Assembly: GCF_900172315.1 (NCBI RefSeq)
Contig: NZ_FWFV01000007.1
Location: 1 to 64,000, forward strand
Length of the DNA stretch: 64,000 nucleotides
From: Palleronia marisminoris
GTDB lineage: Bacteria; Pseudomonadota; Alphaproteobacteria; Rhodobacterales; Rhodobacteraceae
Reading direction: 5' to 3'
The notes under the pieces were generated by a model. It saw only the letters and a program-made list of their open reading frames with translations. It had not been told where the DNA came from and ran no database searches. Position numbers and translations under genes: made by a program. Below are positions 5,343-10,171 of the stretch, piece after piece; positions within the stretch are counted from its first letter, which is position 1; every line of letters begins with the position of its first letter.

Positions 5343-6092
5343 TCATCCCGGCAGTGTCACGATCGTCGCCCCGCGATCCGTCGCGACCACCGTATGTTCA
5401 TACTGCACGACCGGGGCCGCCGGCTCGCTGTAGAGCGTCCAGCCATCGCTCCCGCCGCTGGCCCAGAGCCCGCCCGTCGAGAGGAAGGGCTCGACCGTCA
5501 TGACAAGCCCCTTGTTGATGCGTCGCGTGTCGCCACGGGTCGGCCAGGTCGCGATCTCACCGGGGTACTCGTGCAAGGACCGGCCCACGCCGTGGCTGGC
5601 CAGGTTGCGGATCAGCGTGTAGCCCCGGCCCGAGGCGAAGCGGCCGATGGCCCGGCCGATACCCGCCAGCGGCTTGTCCCGACCGACCTGGGCGATCCCG
5701 ATCTGCATCGCGCGCCTCCCGTCGCGGCAGAGGCGGTGCAGCGACGGGTCTTCTGGCGCGAGATTGTACGTCGCCCCGGTATCGGCGAAGTACCCGTCCT
5801 TGGAGGCCGACACGTCGATGTTCACCAGGTCTCCGAGCGCGATGACCCGGTCGCCCGGTATGCCATGCGCAATCTCCTCGTTCACGCTGATGCAGGTGAA
5901 GCCCGGAAAATCGTAGGTCGATTGCGGGGCCGAAACGGCTCCCTCATGCTCCAGCAGATCGCGGCCGATCTCGTCCAGCTCGCGGGTGGTCATGCCGGGC
6001 TCCATCGCTTTCGCCATGGCCTGCATCGTGTTCGCGACGATCCGGCCGATCTCCTTCAGGCCGTCCAACTCGTCCTCGTGCGTGATCGTCAT
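5343..6092 (-). CDS. map: Type I methionine aminopeptidase
   Basis: A 249-residue enzyme that removes the initiator methionine from nascent proteins. All five metal ligands are visible: Asp93 (NIDVS), Asp104 (FADTG), His167 (ASHGVG), Glu201 (TVEPF) and Glu232 (QYEHT), with substrate-binding His76 in EEIAHGIPG. The length fits the short type I form without an N-terminal zinc or SH3 extension. It lies 33 bases downstream of the MalY/PatB gene on the same strand. A peptide deformylase gene, the preceding step of N-terminal processing, starts 1.3 kb away on the other strand. Many relatives carry a second map elsewhere, so this may not be the only copy. Confidence 0.95.
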   Translation of the reverse strand: MTITHEDELDGLKEIGRIVANTMQAMAKAMEPGMTTRELDEIGRDLLEHEGAVSAPQSTYDFPGFTCISVNEEIAHGIPGDRVIALGDLVNIDVSASKDGYFADTGATYNLAPEDPSLHRLCRDGRRAMQIGIAQVGRDKPLAGIGRAIGRFASGRGYTLIRNLASHGVGRSLHEYPGEIATWPTRGDTRRINKGLVMTVEPFLSTGGLWASGGSDGWTLYSEPAAPVVQYEHTVVATDRGATIVTLPG

Positions 6093-6125: not shown

Positions 6126-7295
6126 TCACTGCAGGTCGGCGAAGGCGCTTTCCAGGCGGGCGCAGGCGTCCTCGATCTGGGCGCGGGGCATGCCGATGTT
6201 GAAGCGCAGGAAACTTTCGCCGCCCTTGCCGAAGGTGCCGCCGTGGTTGGCGGCGATGGACGCGTCCTGCTCGACCCGGCGCGTCGCCTCGGACAGGGCC
6301 ATTCCGGTGCCCGAGAAATCGACCCAGCTGAGATAGGTCGCTTCCAGAGGCATGGAGGACAGCCCCGGAATGGCGGCGATCGTCGCGTCGAAGATGCGGC
6401 GGTTCTCGTCCAGATAGGCCACCAGCCCGTCCACCCACTCCGCGCCTTCCGCCGAATAGGCGGCCTCGGTCATGGCGAGTCCGAACGAATTGGGCGAGAG
6501 GCCGAGCGCGCCCATCCGCCCGGCGAACCGCGCGCGCAGGTCGTCGTCGGCGATGATGACGTTGCCCGTATGGCTGCCGGCGATGTTGAACGTCTTCGAG
6601 GGCGCGTTCAGCGTCACCAGCCGATCCTCGACGCCCGGCGTCAGCGCCATGGGGCGGTGGACGTGGCCGGGATAGGTCAGGTCCTGATGGATCTCGTCCG
6701 AGACCAGCGCCAGGTTGTGGCGTATCGCGAAGTCGGCGATCGCGGCGTTCTCTTCCGCCGTCCAGACGCGTCCGCCGGGATTGTGGGGCGAGCACCAGAT
6801 CACCATGCTCTCGTTGCCCTGCATGGCGGCGTCGAAGGCGTCGATGTCGAGGACGTACTTGCCTTCGACGACCGGCATCTGAAGCTCGCGCACCTCGCGC
6901 CCCGCCGCGCGGATCACGCGGGCGAAGGCGTGGTAGACGGGGGTGAAGAGGACCACGGCGTCGCCGGGCTGCGTGTAGGCATCGACGCAGAGGCCGGTGG
7001 CGTTGACGAGGCCATGGGTCGTCAGGATGTGGGCGGGGTCGATGGACCAGCCGTGGCGCGTCTCCATCCACCAGCGGATCGCCTCGAGATAGGCGGTGTC
7101 GTCGCCGTAGTAGCCGTAAACCCCGTGGGCGTGCATCCGGGCGACGGCATCCTGTACGCATTGCGGCGGGCGGAACTCCGTGTCGGCGACCCACATGGCA
7201 AGGCCCGTCTCGGCGGGAACGCCGTAGATCGCCTCCATCTTGTCCCACTTTGCGCAATGGGTGCCGCGGCGGTCGATGATCTCGTCGAAACTCAT
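6126..7295 (-). CDS. MalY/PatB-type pyridoxal-phosphate C-S lyase
   Basis: A 389-residue fold-type I aminotransferase-like protein of the MalY/PatB group, enzymes that cleave cystathionine or cysteine conjugates to a thiol, ammonia and an oxo acid. Typical features are RRGTHCAKWDKM near the N-terminus, MWVADTEF (34-41), CSPHNPGGRVW (168-178), the cofactor-contacting Asp200 in SDEIHQDL and the Schiff-base Lys234 in APSKTFNIAG. FLRFNIGMPR near the end holds the carboxylate-binding arginine. It is the first gene of a probable two-gene operon with map. The precise substrate cannot be read from sequence; cystathionine beta-lyase activity is common in the group. Confidence 0.9.
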   Translation of the reverse strand: MSFDEIIDRRGTHCAKWDKMEAIYGVPAETGLAMWVADTEFRPPQCVQDAVARMHAHGVYGYYGDDTAYLEAIRWWMETRHGWSIDPAHILTTHGLVNATGLCVDAYTQPGDAVVLFTPVYHAFARVIRAAGREVRELQMPVVEGKYVLDIDAFDAAMQGNESMVIWCSPHNPGGRVWTAEENAAIADFAIRHNLALVSDEIHQDLTYPGHVHRPMALTPGVEDRLVTLNAPSKTFNIAGSHTGNVIIADDDLRARFAGRMGALGLSPNSFGLAMTEAAYSAEGAEWVDGLVAYLDENRRIFDATIAAIPGLSSMPLEATYLSWVDFSGTGMALSEATRRVEQDASIAANHGGTFGKGGESFLRFNIGMPRAQIEDACARLESAFADLQ

Positions 7296-7387
7296 GGGAT
7301 GCTCCTTTGGCCGCTTGGCTAGCAGGCAGGGCGCGGGAGGTGAAGCGGGGCGTTGCGAAGGGCGCGAGGCTCGCCTAAATCCCCTGC

Positions 7388-7906
7388 ATGATCCGCCCCA
7401 TCCTGATCCACCCCGACCCGCGGCTGAAGACCCGCGCGACCGAGATCGGCGCCCCCGACGCCGAGATCCGCGCCCTGGCGTCCGACATGCTGGAAACCAT
7501 GTACGACGCGCCGGGCATCGGCCTTGCCGCGCCGCAGATCGGCGTGATGAAGCGCCTGTTCGTCATGGACTGCATCAAGGAAGAGGGCGCCGAGCCGCGC
7601 CCGATGGCCCTGATCGATCCGGTGGTCGAGTGGTCCTCGGAGGCGCTGAACACCTACGAGGAAGGGTGCCTGTCGATCCCCGAGCAATATGCCGATGTCG
7701 AGCGCCCGGCCGAGGTCGAGGTGTCCTGGACCGACCTTGACGGCGCGCGGCAGCGCGAGCGGTTCGCCGGCCTCTGGGCGACCTGCGCGCAGCACGAGAT
7801 AGACCACCTCGATGGCAAGCTGTTCATCGACTACCTCAAGCCGATGCGGCGGCAGATGATCACCCGCAAGATGCAGAAGATGAAGCGAGAGCAGGCGCGC
7901 GCGTGA
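7388..7906 (+). CDS. def: Peptide deformylase
   Basis: A 172-residue enzyme that removes the formyl group from the N-terminal methionine of new proteins. The three family motifs are intact: GIGLAAPQ (43-50), EGCLS (92-96, metal ligand Cys94) and HEIDH (136-140, ligands His136 and His140 and catalytic Glu137). It is the first gene of a tightly overlapping three-gene operon and is therefore the active deformylase of the set. The family's usual methyltransferase partner (fmt) is not next to it here. Confidence 0.97.
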   Translation: MIRPILIHPDPRLKTRATEIGAPDAEIRALASDMLETMYDAPGIGLAAPQIGVMKRLFVMDCIKEEGAEPRPMALIDPVVEWSSEALNTYEEGCLSIPEQYADVERPAEVEVSWTDLDGARQRERFAGLWATCAQHEIDHLDGKLFIDYLKPMRRQMITRKMQKMKREQARA

Positions 7907-8349
7907 TGCCGCCGGTCTACGCTCCGCGCCCCGTGCGCCACCTGATGATGTGGCGGATCGGAGCCCTGCGCGTGAAGCCCTACCATATCGGCCATGCGGT
8001 GCCGACCGAGGCGCGCGTGTCTGCGGCACGGCTCGAGGCCGACCGGATGGCCGAGGCTGCCGCGACCGAAGGCAGTTCGCACGATCTTGGCTTCGCCGTG
8101 GTGCACGAGGGCGAGGCCGGGACGTGGCTGCTGATGGACTGGTGGGCGCATGGCGACATCCTGTGTCAGCGCCTCAGCCTTGACGATGGGGCCGGGTTCC
8201 GGGCCGTGGATGACCGCCCTCTGACCGCCTGCGTATGGGAGCTCCCGGTGCTGATGCACGAGCGCGACGCCTGGGTGCGGCACATGATGCACGCGCCCGC
8301 CTCGGCCGATCGCTACCTGTCGGACCGCCTGCCCGAGGGGGTCGTCTGA
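7906..8349 (+). CDS. Uncharacterised protein encoded between two deformylase-family genes
   Basis: A 147-residue protein (148 if translation begins at the GTG three bases earlier). Its start overlaps the def stop by one base (TGATG) and its own stop overlaps the next ATG in the same way, so translation of the three genes is probably coupled. It is not a deformylase: no GxGLAAPQ or HExDH is present. It is rich in Trp, His and Met (LMMWRIGALRVKPYHIGH near the start; TWLLMDWWAHGDIL around residues 76-89), has no signal peptide or membrane segment, and appears globular. I recognise no named family. The context suggests a role near nascent-chain processing, but that is inference. Confidence 0.8.
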   Translation: MPPVYAPRPVRHLMMWRIGALRVKPYHIGHAVPTEARVSAARLEADRMAEAAATEGSSHDLGFAVVHEGEAGTWLLMDWWAHGDILCQRLSLDDGAGFRAVDDRPLTACVWELPVLMHERDAWVRHMMHAPASADRYLSDRLPEGVV

Positions 8350-8843
8350 TGGCGGTCCGCCCGATCCTGCGCTGGCCGGACCGGCGGTTGCGCGTTTCTG
8401 CGGCCCCGGTCGAGGCGGTGACGGACGACATCCGCGCGATATGGCAGGACATGATTGACACGATGGACGCGATGCCGGGCGTGGGCCTTGCCGCGCCGCA
8501 GATCGGGGTGGGGCTGCGCCTTGCGGTGGTCGATGCCAGCGATGCGCGCGGGCAGGCGGTTCGAATGGCTAATCCGCAGGTGCTGCATGCGAGTGTCGAG
8601 GATCGCGTGCATGAAGAGGCCTCGCCCTGTTTGCCGGGTGTCTCGGCCAAGGTGGCGCGGCCGCGCGCGGTGACGGTGCGGTTCTTGAACGCCGAGGGCG
8701 CGGTCGTGGAGCGGGATTTCGTTCACCTCTGGGCGGCGAGCGTGCAGCACCAGATCGACCACCTGGATGGCAAGCTGTTCGTGGATCGCCTCAGCCGCAC
8801 CAAGCGCGAGATGCTGATCCGGCGGTCGGCCAAGGCGGGCTGA
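8349..8843 (+). CDS. Peptide deformylase-like protein lacking the catalytic glutamate
   Basis: A 164-residue deformylase homologue. The frame is open further upstream, but the ATG at 8349 overlaps the previous stop by one base and begins a normal family N-terminus (VRPILRWPDRRL). The first motif GVGLAAPQ (44-51) is perfect. The second is altered, ASPCLPG (91-97) where EGCLS is expected, although Cys94 is kept. The third is HQIDH (134-138), so both metal histidines remain but the catalytic Glu is Gln135. In characterised deformylases, replacing this Glu abolishes or nearly abolishes activity. It is therefore probably a non-catalytic or altered-activity paralogue of the first gene in the operon. 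Confidence 0.9.
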   Translation: MAVRPILRWPDRRLRVSAAPVEAVTDDIRAIWQDMIDTMDAMPGVGLAAPQIGVGLRLAVVDASDARGQAVRMANPQVLHASVEDRVHEEASPCLPGVSAKVARPRAVTVRFLNAEGAVVERDFVHLWAASVQHQIDHLDGKLFVDRLSRTKREMLIRRSAKAG

Positions 8844-8902
8844 TTGTTGCCACGCGGGGGTGGGGCGGCGTATGTCGGCGACGCCCGGACCCGGAGACGC
8901 CC

Positions 8903-10171
8903 ATGACCCTGACCTTCCGCAACGCCCGCCTGATCGATCCCGAAACCGGCGAGGAGCGCCGGGGCGACCTGCACGTCGCCGAGGGACACATCTTGGACGC
9001 GGCACCCGAGGCGGCCGAGGTGATCGACTGCCGGGGCAAGTGCCTTGCGCCGGGGATCGTGGATCTGGGCGTGAAGGTCTCTGAACCCGGCGAGCGGCAC
9101 AAGGAAAGCTTCGCCTCGGCCGGACGCGCCGCCGCCCGGGGCGGGGTGACGACGATGGTGACGCGGCCCGATACGAACCCCGCCATCGACACGCCCGAGG
9201 TGCTGGAGTTCGTCGCCAGACGGGCCGAGGCCGATTCGAAGGTGCGGACGGCCCATATGGCCGCGCTGACCAAGGGGCGGGACGGGCGCGAGATGACCGA
9301 GATCGGGTTCCTGATGGATGCGGGGGCTGTGGCGTTCACCGATTGCGACCGGGTGGTGGAGGATACGCGCGTGCTGTCCCGCGCGCTGACCTATGCCAAG
9401 GGCCTTGGTGCGCTGGTCGTGGGGCATGTGCAGGAGCCGGGGTTGAGCCGGGGGGCCGCGGCGACGAGCGGCAAGTTCGCGTCGCTTTACGGGCTGCCGG
9501 GGGTGTCGCCGATGGCGGAACGGATGGGGCTGGACCGGGATATCTCGCTGCTGGAGATGACGGGCGCGCGGTATCACGTCGACCAGATCACCTCTGCCCG
9601 GGCGCTGCCGGCGCTGGAGCGGGCCAAGCGCAACGGGCTGGATATCACCGCCGGGATCGGCATCCACCACCTGACGCTGAACGAGCTGGACGTGGCGGGC
9701 TATCGGACATTCTTCAAGCTGAAGCCGCCGCTTCGGGCGGAGGATGACCGGCAGGCGGCGGTCGAGGCTGTCGCCTCGGGGCTGATCGACGTTATCTGTT
9801 CGATGCACACGCCGCAGGACGAGGAATCGAAGCGCCTGCCCTTTGAAGAAGCCGCATCGGGTGCGGTTGGGCTAGAGACGCTGCTGCCCGCCGCGATGCA
9901 GCTGGTGCATGCGGGCAGCCTGACGCTGCCGCAGCTGTGGCGGGCGCTGTCGCTGACCCCGGCGCGGCGGCTGGGGCTGGAGGGGGGGCGGCTGTCGGCG
10001 GGCGCTCCGGCGGACCTGGTGCTGTTCGACCCCGATGCGCCCTTCGTGCTGGATCGCTCGACGCTGGCGTCGAAATCCAAGAACACGCCGTTCGACGGGG
10101 CGCGGATGCAGGGGCGGGTGCTGGGAACGTGGGTCGGCGGCGCGCAGGTCTATGCGCGCGAGGCGGCCTGA
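8903..10171 (+). CDS. Dihydroorotase-like amidohydrolase without the HxH metal motif
   Basis: A 422-residue member of the dihydroorotase family (PyrC/PyrX type I). The overall layout fits: an N-terminal urease-like strand, LAPGIVDL (48-55), a barrel, and a C-terminal NPA-like ending (ALSLTPARRLGL, then LVLFDPDAPFVLD). The usual DxHVHxREPG is here DLGVKVSEPG (54-63), with Gly56 and Lys58 in place of both metal histidines. The usual DHAPH is SMHTPQ. Later histidines in GHVQEPG and GIHHLTLNE survive. This pattern matches non-catalytic PyrX-like subunits, which in some bacteria support aspartate transcarbamoylase assembly. No pyrB is adjacent. It starts 59 bases after the deformylase-like gene. 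Confidence 0.85.
   Translation: MTLTFRNARLIDPETGEERRGDLHVAEGHILDAAPEAAEVIDCRGKCLAPGIVDLGVKVSEPGERHKESFASAGRAAARGGVTTMVTRPDTNPAIDTPEVLEFVARRAEADSKVRTAHMAALTKGRDGREMTEIGFLMDAGAVAFTDCDRVVEDTRVLSRALTYAKGLGALVVGHVQEPGLSRGAAATSGKFASLYGLPGVSPMAERMGLDRDISLLEMTGARYHVDQITSARALPALERAKRNGLDITAGIGIHHLTLNELDVAGYRTFFKLKPPLRAEDDRQAAVEAVASGLIDVICSMHTPQDEESKRLPFEEAASGAVGLETLLPAAMQLVHAGSLTLPQLWRALSLTPARRLGLEGGRLSAGAPADLVLFDPDAPFVLDRSTLASKSKNTPFDGARMQGRVLGTWVGGAQVYAREAA

Follow-up and report, generated by a model that had tools for sequence, protein, structure and literature searches.

A probable pseudo-deformylase with a uniformly replaced active site and a preserved ribosome-contact tail in the Rhodobacterales

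Introduction

Positions 8349..8843 (+) of the window, which is the whole 64,000-nucleotide stretch of Palleronia marisminoris DNA analysed here, encode a 164-residue paralogue of peptide deformylase (PDF), PDF-C (P0001), in which the metal-binding cysteine, the leucine that follows it and the catalytic glutamate of the family are all replaced. The same replacements are fixed in all 148 PDF-C copies compared. As judged from its sequence, PDF-C has very probably lost deformylase chemistry, and it keeps basic C-terminal residues at places where the E. coli enzyme contacts the ribosome. The explanation that we favour, with moderate confidence, is that PDF-C is a ribosome-docked pseudo-deformylase, which would engage or shield the formyl-Met end without cutting it and would tune the timing of the active deformylase, PDF-A, and of methionine aminopeptidase (MAP).

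Protein maturation in bacteria includes deformylation as an essential step, one that antibiotics target. PDFs are clustered in 98.1% of Rhodobacterales reference species, and 62.5% carry three (PMC12690207, 2025). From the accessible text of that study, its clusters are the same as the one described here, and the rationale of the clustering was termed elusive (PMC12690207). The type 3 PDFs are accessory copies whose conserved motifs carry substitutions. They occur in archaea and trypanosomatids and as the second PDF in S. aureus and in S. pneumoniae, and are described as mostly weak or inactive (PMC5591237, PMC12690207). PDF clustering and inactive accessory PDFs were therefore already known. 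What appears to be new is the order-wide fixation of an active-site replacement: a fixed C90S/L91P/E133Q combination in an order-wide clade was found neither in the accessible text of PMC12690207 nor in the open-licence literature searched.

Gene context of PDF-C

PDF-C was assigned by a PF01327 match, an alignment of orthologues and a fold model. It is one of two PF01327 matches in the P. marisminoris genome; the other is PDF-A (7388..7906, +), a canonical deformylase whose motifs (EGCLS and HEIDH) are intact when aligned with E. coli PDF. The original prediction placed PDF-C in a coupled operon with a normal deformylase. The normal deformylase is present, but the two genes are not adjacent, as a 148-residue open reading frame, P0003, lies between them on the same strand (from 7903 with a GTG start or 7906 with an ATG start, to 8349). 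Coupling itself fared better: both junctions are TGATG stop/start overlaps on the plus strand, at 7904..7908 between PDF-A and P0003 and at 8347..8351 between P0003 and PDF-C, so that a coupled three-gene unit is plausible.

P0003 was assigned to no family, having no Pfam match and an NCBIfam match at chance level only. It is conserved in relatives, in or beside the PDF cluster of the window's genus, of Roseivivax halodurans and of Palleronia aestuarii (nine aligned, 47-69% identity), and its AF2 model (pLDDT 88.4) had no fold match in the PDB at E <= 0.001. A scan of 7250-8950 gave no sigma-70-like promoter; its single terminator-like hit, near chance level, falls within PDF-A on the minus strand. 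The minus-strand frames overlapping PDF-C (8174-8650 is an example) come from mechanical ORF calling.

Two genes read from their translations lie divergently on the minus strand near PDF-A: a MalY-like aminotransferase (6126-7295) beside it, which adjoins PDF-A in most relatives, and a MAP-like gene (5343-6092), which is rarely present in the stretches fetched from relatives. On the other side, the gene directly after PDF-C, in the same orientation, is fmt in 137 of 148 clusters. In the window genome fmt does not adjoin PDF-C; a dihydroorotase-like ORF (8903-10171, translation reading) comes next. The genome has five formyltransferase loci, of which the one on contig C11 is the best fmt match.

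For comparison we assembled 161 loci, namely 80 of 570 candidates encoding a relative, 80 from further relatives and the window. Some genomes entered twice from two collections (for example L039 and L128, L065 and L132), and the 148 PDF-C copies therefore amount to 143 distinct sequences. PDF-A comes first in 161/161 loci (one split), and in the 148 loci with PDF-C this copy is always the final PDF. A middle copy with intact motifs is termed PDF-B, and its group of 80 rows takes in one split PDF-A fragment (L072). The gene order is A-B-C in 78 loci, A-C in 69, a split A followed by B and C in one (L072) and A alone in 13. A record named Enemella evansiae TN21-6 (L065, L132 and G015) carries A-B-C under an actinobacterial name that looks wrong.

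Active-site residues

PDF-C was aligned with the E. coli PDF from NC_000913 and with its orthologues; against the E. coli reference there is no gap through motif II or motif III. Motif II is remodelled to ASPCLPG (residues 91-97; 8619..8639, +) within EEASPCLPG, and motif III, HQIDH (residues 134-138; 8748..8762, +), lies within QHQIDHLDG. Cys90 of the E. coli enzyme is replaced by Ser92, Leu91 by Pro93, Ser92 by Cys94 and Glu133 by Gln135; Cys129 is also replaced by Ser. His132, His136 and Gln50 are all kept. Among the features of an active PDF, PDF-C has the motif I Gln50 but neither EGCLS with its metal Cys in motif II nor HExxH in motif III. The glutamine at the catalytic position, the altered motif II and the retention of both metal histidines (His134 and His138 in 148/148 copies) are all as originally predicted. 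The prediction erred in taking the cysteine as retained: the visible Cys94 occupies the place of E. coli Ser92, and the metal Cys90 place is held by Ser92.

Glu133 of PDF is the general acid/base, and the backbone NH of Leu91 helps to hold the formyl oxygen in the PDF family; a proline offers none. With the metal Cys, Leu91 and the catalytic Glu lost together, PDF-C is not expected to carry out deformylation at any useful rate.

Every one of the 148 copies combines E-A/G-S-P in motif II with HQxDH in motif III. The glutamine is thus fixed across the relatives, and a single-strain change or sequencing error is ruled out. Trp32, Gln51, Glu90, Ser92, Pro93, Arg104, Ser131, His134, Gln135, Asp137, His138 and Gly141 are invariant in 148/148 copies; position 94, at the E. 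coli Ser92 place, is Asn in 130, Cys in 15 and His in 3. A shifted alignment that would keep Cys as the ligand was rejected, since the flanking Glu and Leu-Pro-Gly align gap-free, Asn stands at position 94 in most relatives, and Asn and Cys alternate there within the window's own genus. The reading as a pseudoenzyme, proposed from the loss of Glu133, is strengthened because Cys90 and Leu91 are replaced as well, all three family-wide.

PDF-A has CLS together with HE in 160/161 rows. The exception is L072 (3978-4471), where the gene is split into two overlapping frames by a frameshift or sequencing error. At the place of E. coli Arg97, 83% of the 161 PDF-A rows carry Tyr.

Fold and family membership

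PDF-C scores 137.7 bits against PF01327 (cut-off 22.8). An AF2 model built from 27 orthologues (pLDDT 96.3, pTM 0.91) has the full PDF fold, including a C-terminal helix at residues 150-163 as expected for type 1B. In the PDB it matches best the PDFs of E. coli and other PDFs, and Foldseek gives a TMq of 0.93-0.95 to E. coli PDF entries. PDF-C resembles E. coli Def, a type 1B PDF, with an rmsd of 1.1-1.4 Å to top-ranked E. coli entries such as 1icj, 1bsj and 1lru at about 38% identity, and the two share the motif I Gln50, both metal His and K/R at positions 150, 157 and 160. They differ at Cys90 (Ser), Leu91 (Pro), Glu133 (Gln) and Cys129 (Ser), and the PDF-C tail is shorter.

PDF-C is also like the type 3 PDFs in being an accessory copy with substitutions in conserved motifs, which is the criterion for that type. 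It differs from them in forming one clade among alphaproteobacterial PDFs, in a tree without type 3 sequences, in the uniformity of its replacement and in being clustered with an active PDF and fmt. PDF-C passes the NCBI peptide deformylase models TIGR00079 (equivalog, 133.3 vs 103.95) and NF001159 (131.1 vs 125), so that name-based counts of active PDFs are probably inflated. Its naming as a peptide deformylase would be an annotation error.

C-terminal tail and ribosome contacts

In E. coli PDF, L149, K150, R153 and K157 contact uL22, and K160 and R163 contact 23S rRNA, according to the accessible text of PMC12690207. PDF and MAP are reported to compete for one ribosome site (PMC8712518). The basic tail of PDF-C (residues 142-164; 8772..8840, +) carries K152, R159 and K162 at the places of E. 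coli K150, K157 and K160, and K/R is found at each of these three places in 148/148 copies. The corresponding counts for PDF-A are 159, 159 and 160 of 160, and those for PDF-B only 2, 4 and 8 of 79 (rows that include one PDF-A fragment). The median tail after motif III is 29 residues in A, 21 in B and 24 in C, with a mean net charge of +7.8, -1.0 and +7.0, respectively.

Outside these three places the contacts are less uniform. At the E. coli R153 place PDF-C has K/R in 7/148 copies and Met in 139, and PDF-A has K/R in 0/160 and Met in most. V. cholerae Def2 likewise has Met there; it is active, and its motifs, unlike those of PDF-C, are intact (PMC12690207, accessible text). At the R163 place, K/R occurs in 60/148 copies of PDF-C, and 41 end before it.

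The preserved tail contacts, together with the invariant pocket, favour a role for PDF-C at the ribosome, although the tail could be kept for solubility or fold alone. The roles named in the original prediction, binding of nascent N-termini or regulation of the active copy, are candidates. PDF-B and PDF-C form a complementary pattern, as PDF-B has an intact site without the docking tail and PDF-C has the docking tail with a seemingly dead site.

Distribution among relatives

PDF-C is absent from 12 of 80 sampled relatives. Among the 13 genomes with PDF-A alone at the locus, 12 have no PDF-C anywhere and one of the window's own genus (G009) has it elsewhere, at C1:2679129-2679605, about 2.15 Mb from PDF-A; clustering is therefore not obligatory. 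Across the order, 237/244 genomes match the C profile at E <= 1e-60, a count that rests on profile scores read by eye rather than on residues. The other seven match at 1e-45 to 1e-52 and have PDF-A only, except for G681, in which an intact tail-less PDF-B adjoins PDF-A and PDF-C is absent.

PDF-C is present in all 79 PDF-B loci (Fisher p = 0.0003, relatedness ignored), but a phylogenetically paired sign test on the tree is not significant (median p 0.25). A rule that PDF-B never occurs without PDF-C was dropped on the strength of this test and of G681. G681 also shows that PDF-C is no strict requirement for PDF-B, and it weakens the idea that PDF-C may dock on behalf of the tail-less PDF-B.

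A codon pattern for Q-H-Q-[FILMV]-D-H occurs in 37 of 385 genomes of the class, five of them in the window's family. Among the loci fetched from pattern-bearing genomes, only those of the five family members gave PDFs with HQ. In a profile search the 32 non-family genomes reached no more than 177 bits, compared with 288 for a true PDF-C in the same search. The same replacement outside the family is thus not supported. A scan of viral_contigs with profile A1, directed at a phage origin, gave 167 pattern matches and no relative. Of 72,556 plasmid records, 1013 match PDF-C, and 1012 of these fall below 60% identity; the one above it is a 1.58-Mb replicon of Pseudorhodobacter turbinis. Plasmid spread, judged by identity and not by motifs, was therefore dropped.

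Evolution and selection

A tree was built from 106 PDFs (27 C rows and 24 B rows) of Rhodobacteraceae and other alphaproteobacteria. The 27 PDF-C rows make up one side of a branch with an SH-aLRT of 100, and their stem is 1.0 changes per column long; the branch of the 24 PDF-B rows also has an SH-aLRT of 100. On an 80-locus tree (from PDF-A, MalY and Fmt), the gain and loss of PDF-C takes at least nine changes, which suggests that the family acquired it long ago and that some lineages can do without it. Deformylase is not named in the main text of a report on essentiality in R. sphaeroides (PMC5513736).

PDF-C is evidently under purifying selection about as strong as that on the active PDF-A, as far as sequence comparison can tell. 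Mean pairwise identity is.692 for A,.516 for B and.689 for C. When only the 79 loci carrying A, B and C are counted, the values are.718,.518 and.696, respectively; of the 3081 locus pairs, 98.6% show greater similarity in C than in B, but only 35.3% show greater similarity in C than in A. Median dN/dS, taken over pairs with 0.1 < dS < 1.0 that are non-independent and subject to GC bias, is.277 for A (4888 pairs),.536 for B (822) and.319 for C (3735).

Discussion

A site fixed in a presumably non-hydrolysing form, together with a fixed docking tail, makes a ribosome-docked, non-catalytic PDF the simplest account of PDF-C. By its model the protein folds as a type 1 PDF, and the substrate strand, Gln50 and the two metal-binding histidines are preserved. 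Its basic C-terminal helix would dock it at the shared PDF/MAP site beside the tunnel exit, where it may read or shield the formyl-Met end without cleavage. In doing so it would compete with PDF-A or MAP and thereby set when PDF-A and methionine aminopeptidase act. The fixed replacements, the purifying selection and the tail are seen in the sequences; the loss of chemistry is strongly inferred from them, and docking, ligand binding and the regulatory effect are more tentative. That most sampled Rhodobacterales keep a presumably dead PDF with intact ribosome-contact residues suggests an unrecognised non-catalytic tunnel-exit factor, and makes the question of why these bacteria cluster PDF genes directly testable.

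The invariance of the pocket can also be read in another way. Ser92, Pro93, Gln135, His134 and His138 stand in 148/148 copies, invariant rather than drifting, as though the pocket itself were in use. PDF-C might then be a remodelled enzyme, in which a Ser/Pro/Asn/Gln pocket and two His, with another metal or none, act on another N-terminal or small formyl/acyl substrate. We consider this rather unlikely. The metal Cys, Leu91 and the general base have all been lost, and apart from Ser92 no conserved acid or nucleophile has taken their place; position 94, which would supply the Asn, also varies. A pocket that only binds would show equal invariance.

It is more doubtful still that PDF-C remains a weak or conditional deformylase in vivo. 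The fold, both His and Gln50 are kept, and motif conservation is described as no safe test of activity, with type 3 PDFs of T. brucei cited as active despite their altered motifs (PMC12690207, accessible text). Against this, all three catalytic elements are replaced in 148/148 copies, and a canonical PDF-A occurs in 161/161 loci (one split), so that PDF-C is not needed for the essential reaction.

Two further possibilities are both improbable. One is that PDF-C serves as an inhibitor decoy, which would bind actinonin-like compounds made by competitors and so spare PDF-A. Hydroxamate inhibitors bind PDF via the metal, whose Cys ligand PDF-C has lost. Accessory PDFs can confer inhibitor resistance, as the accessible text of PMC12690207 describes; the same source reports that an Arg-to-Tyr change at the Arg97 place lowers actinonin susceptibility in V. 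cholerae Def2. As most PDF-A copies themselves have Tyr at this place, the Def2 resistance signature, a decoy seems unnecessary. The other, to which we give similarly little weight, is that the cluster shares out a single task, with PDF-C as a ribosome-docked receptor or brake that would gate how PDF-A, and any PDF-B in the locus, reach nascent formyl-Met ends. The complementary pattern of tail and site in PDF-B and PDF-C, and the presence of PDF-C in all 79 PDF-B loci, speak for it; G681 and the non-significant paired sign test speak against it.

That PDF-C is a decaying duplicate without function is hardly credible: it has been lost in several lineages, but a median dN/dS of 0.32, an identity like that of PDF-A, open frames throughout and fixed residues all stand against decay.

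A separate loss was seen in one PDF-B (L043:4516-4980), which itself has neither the metal Cys (EENALS) nor HE (QQVMDH) and appears to be an independent dead deformylase.
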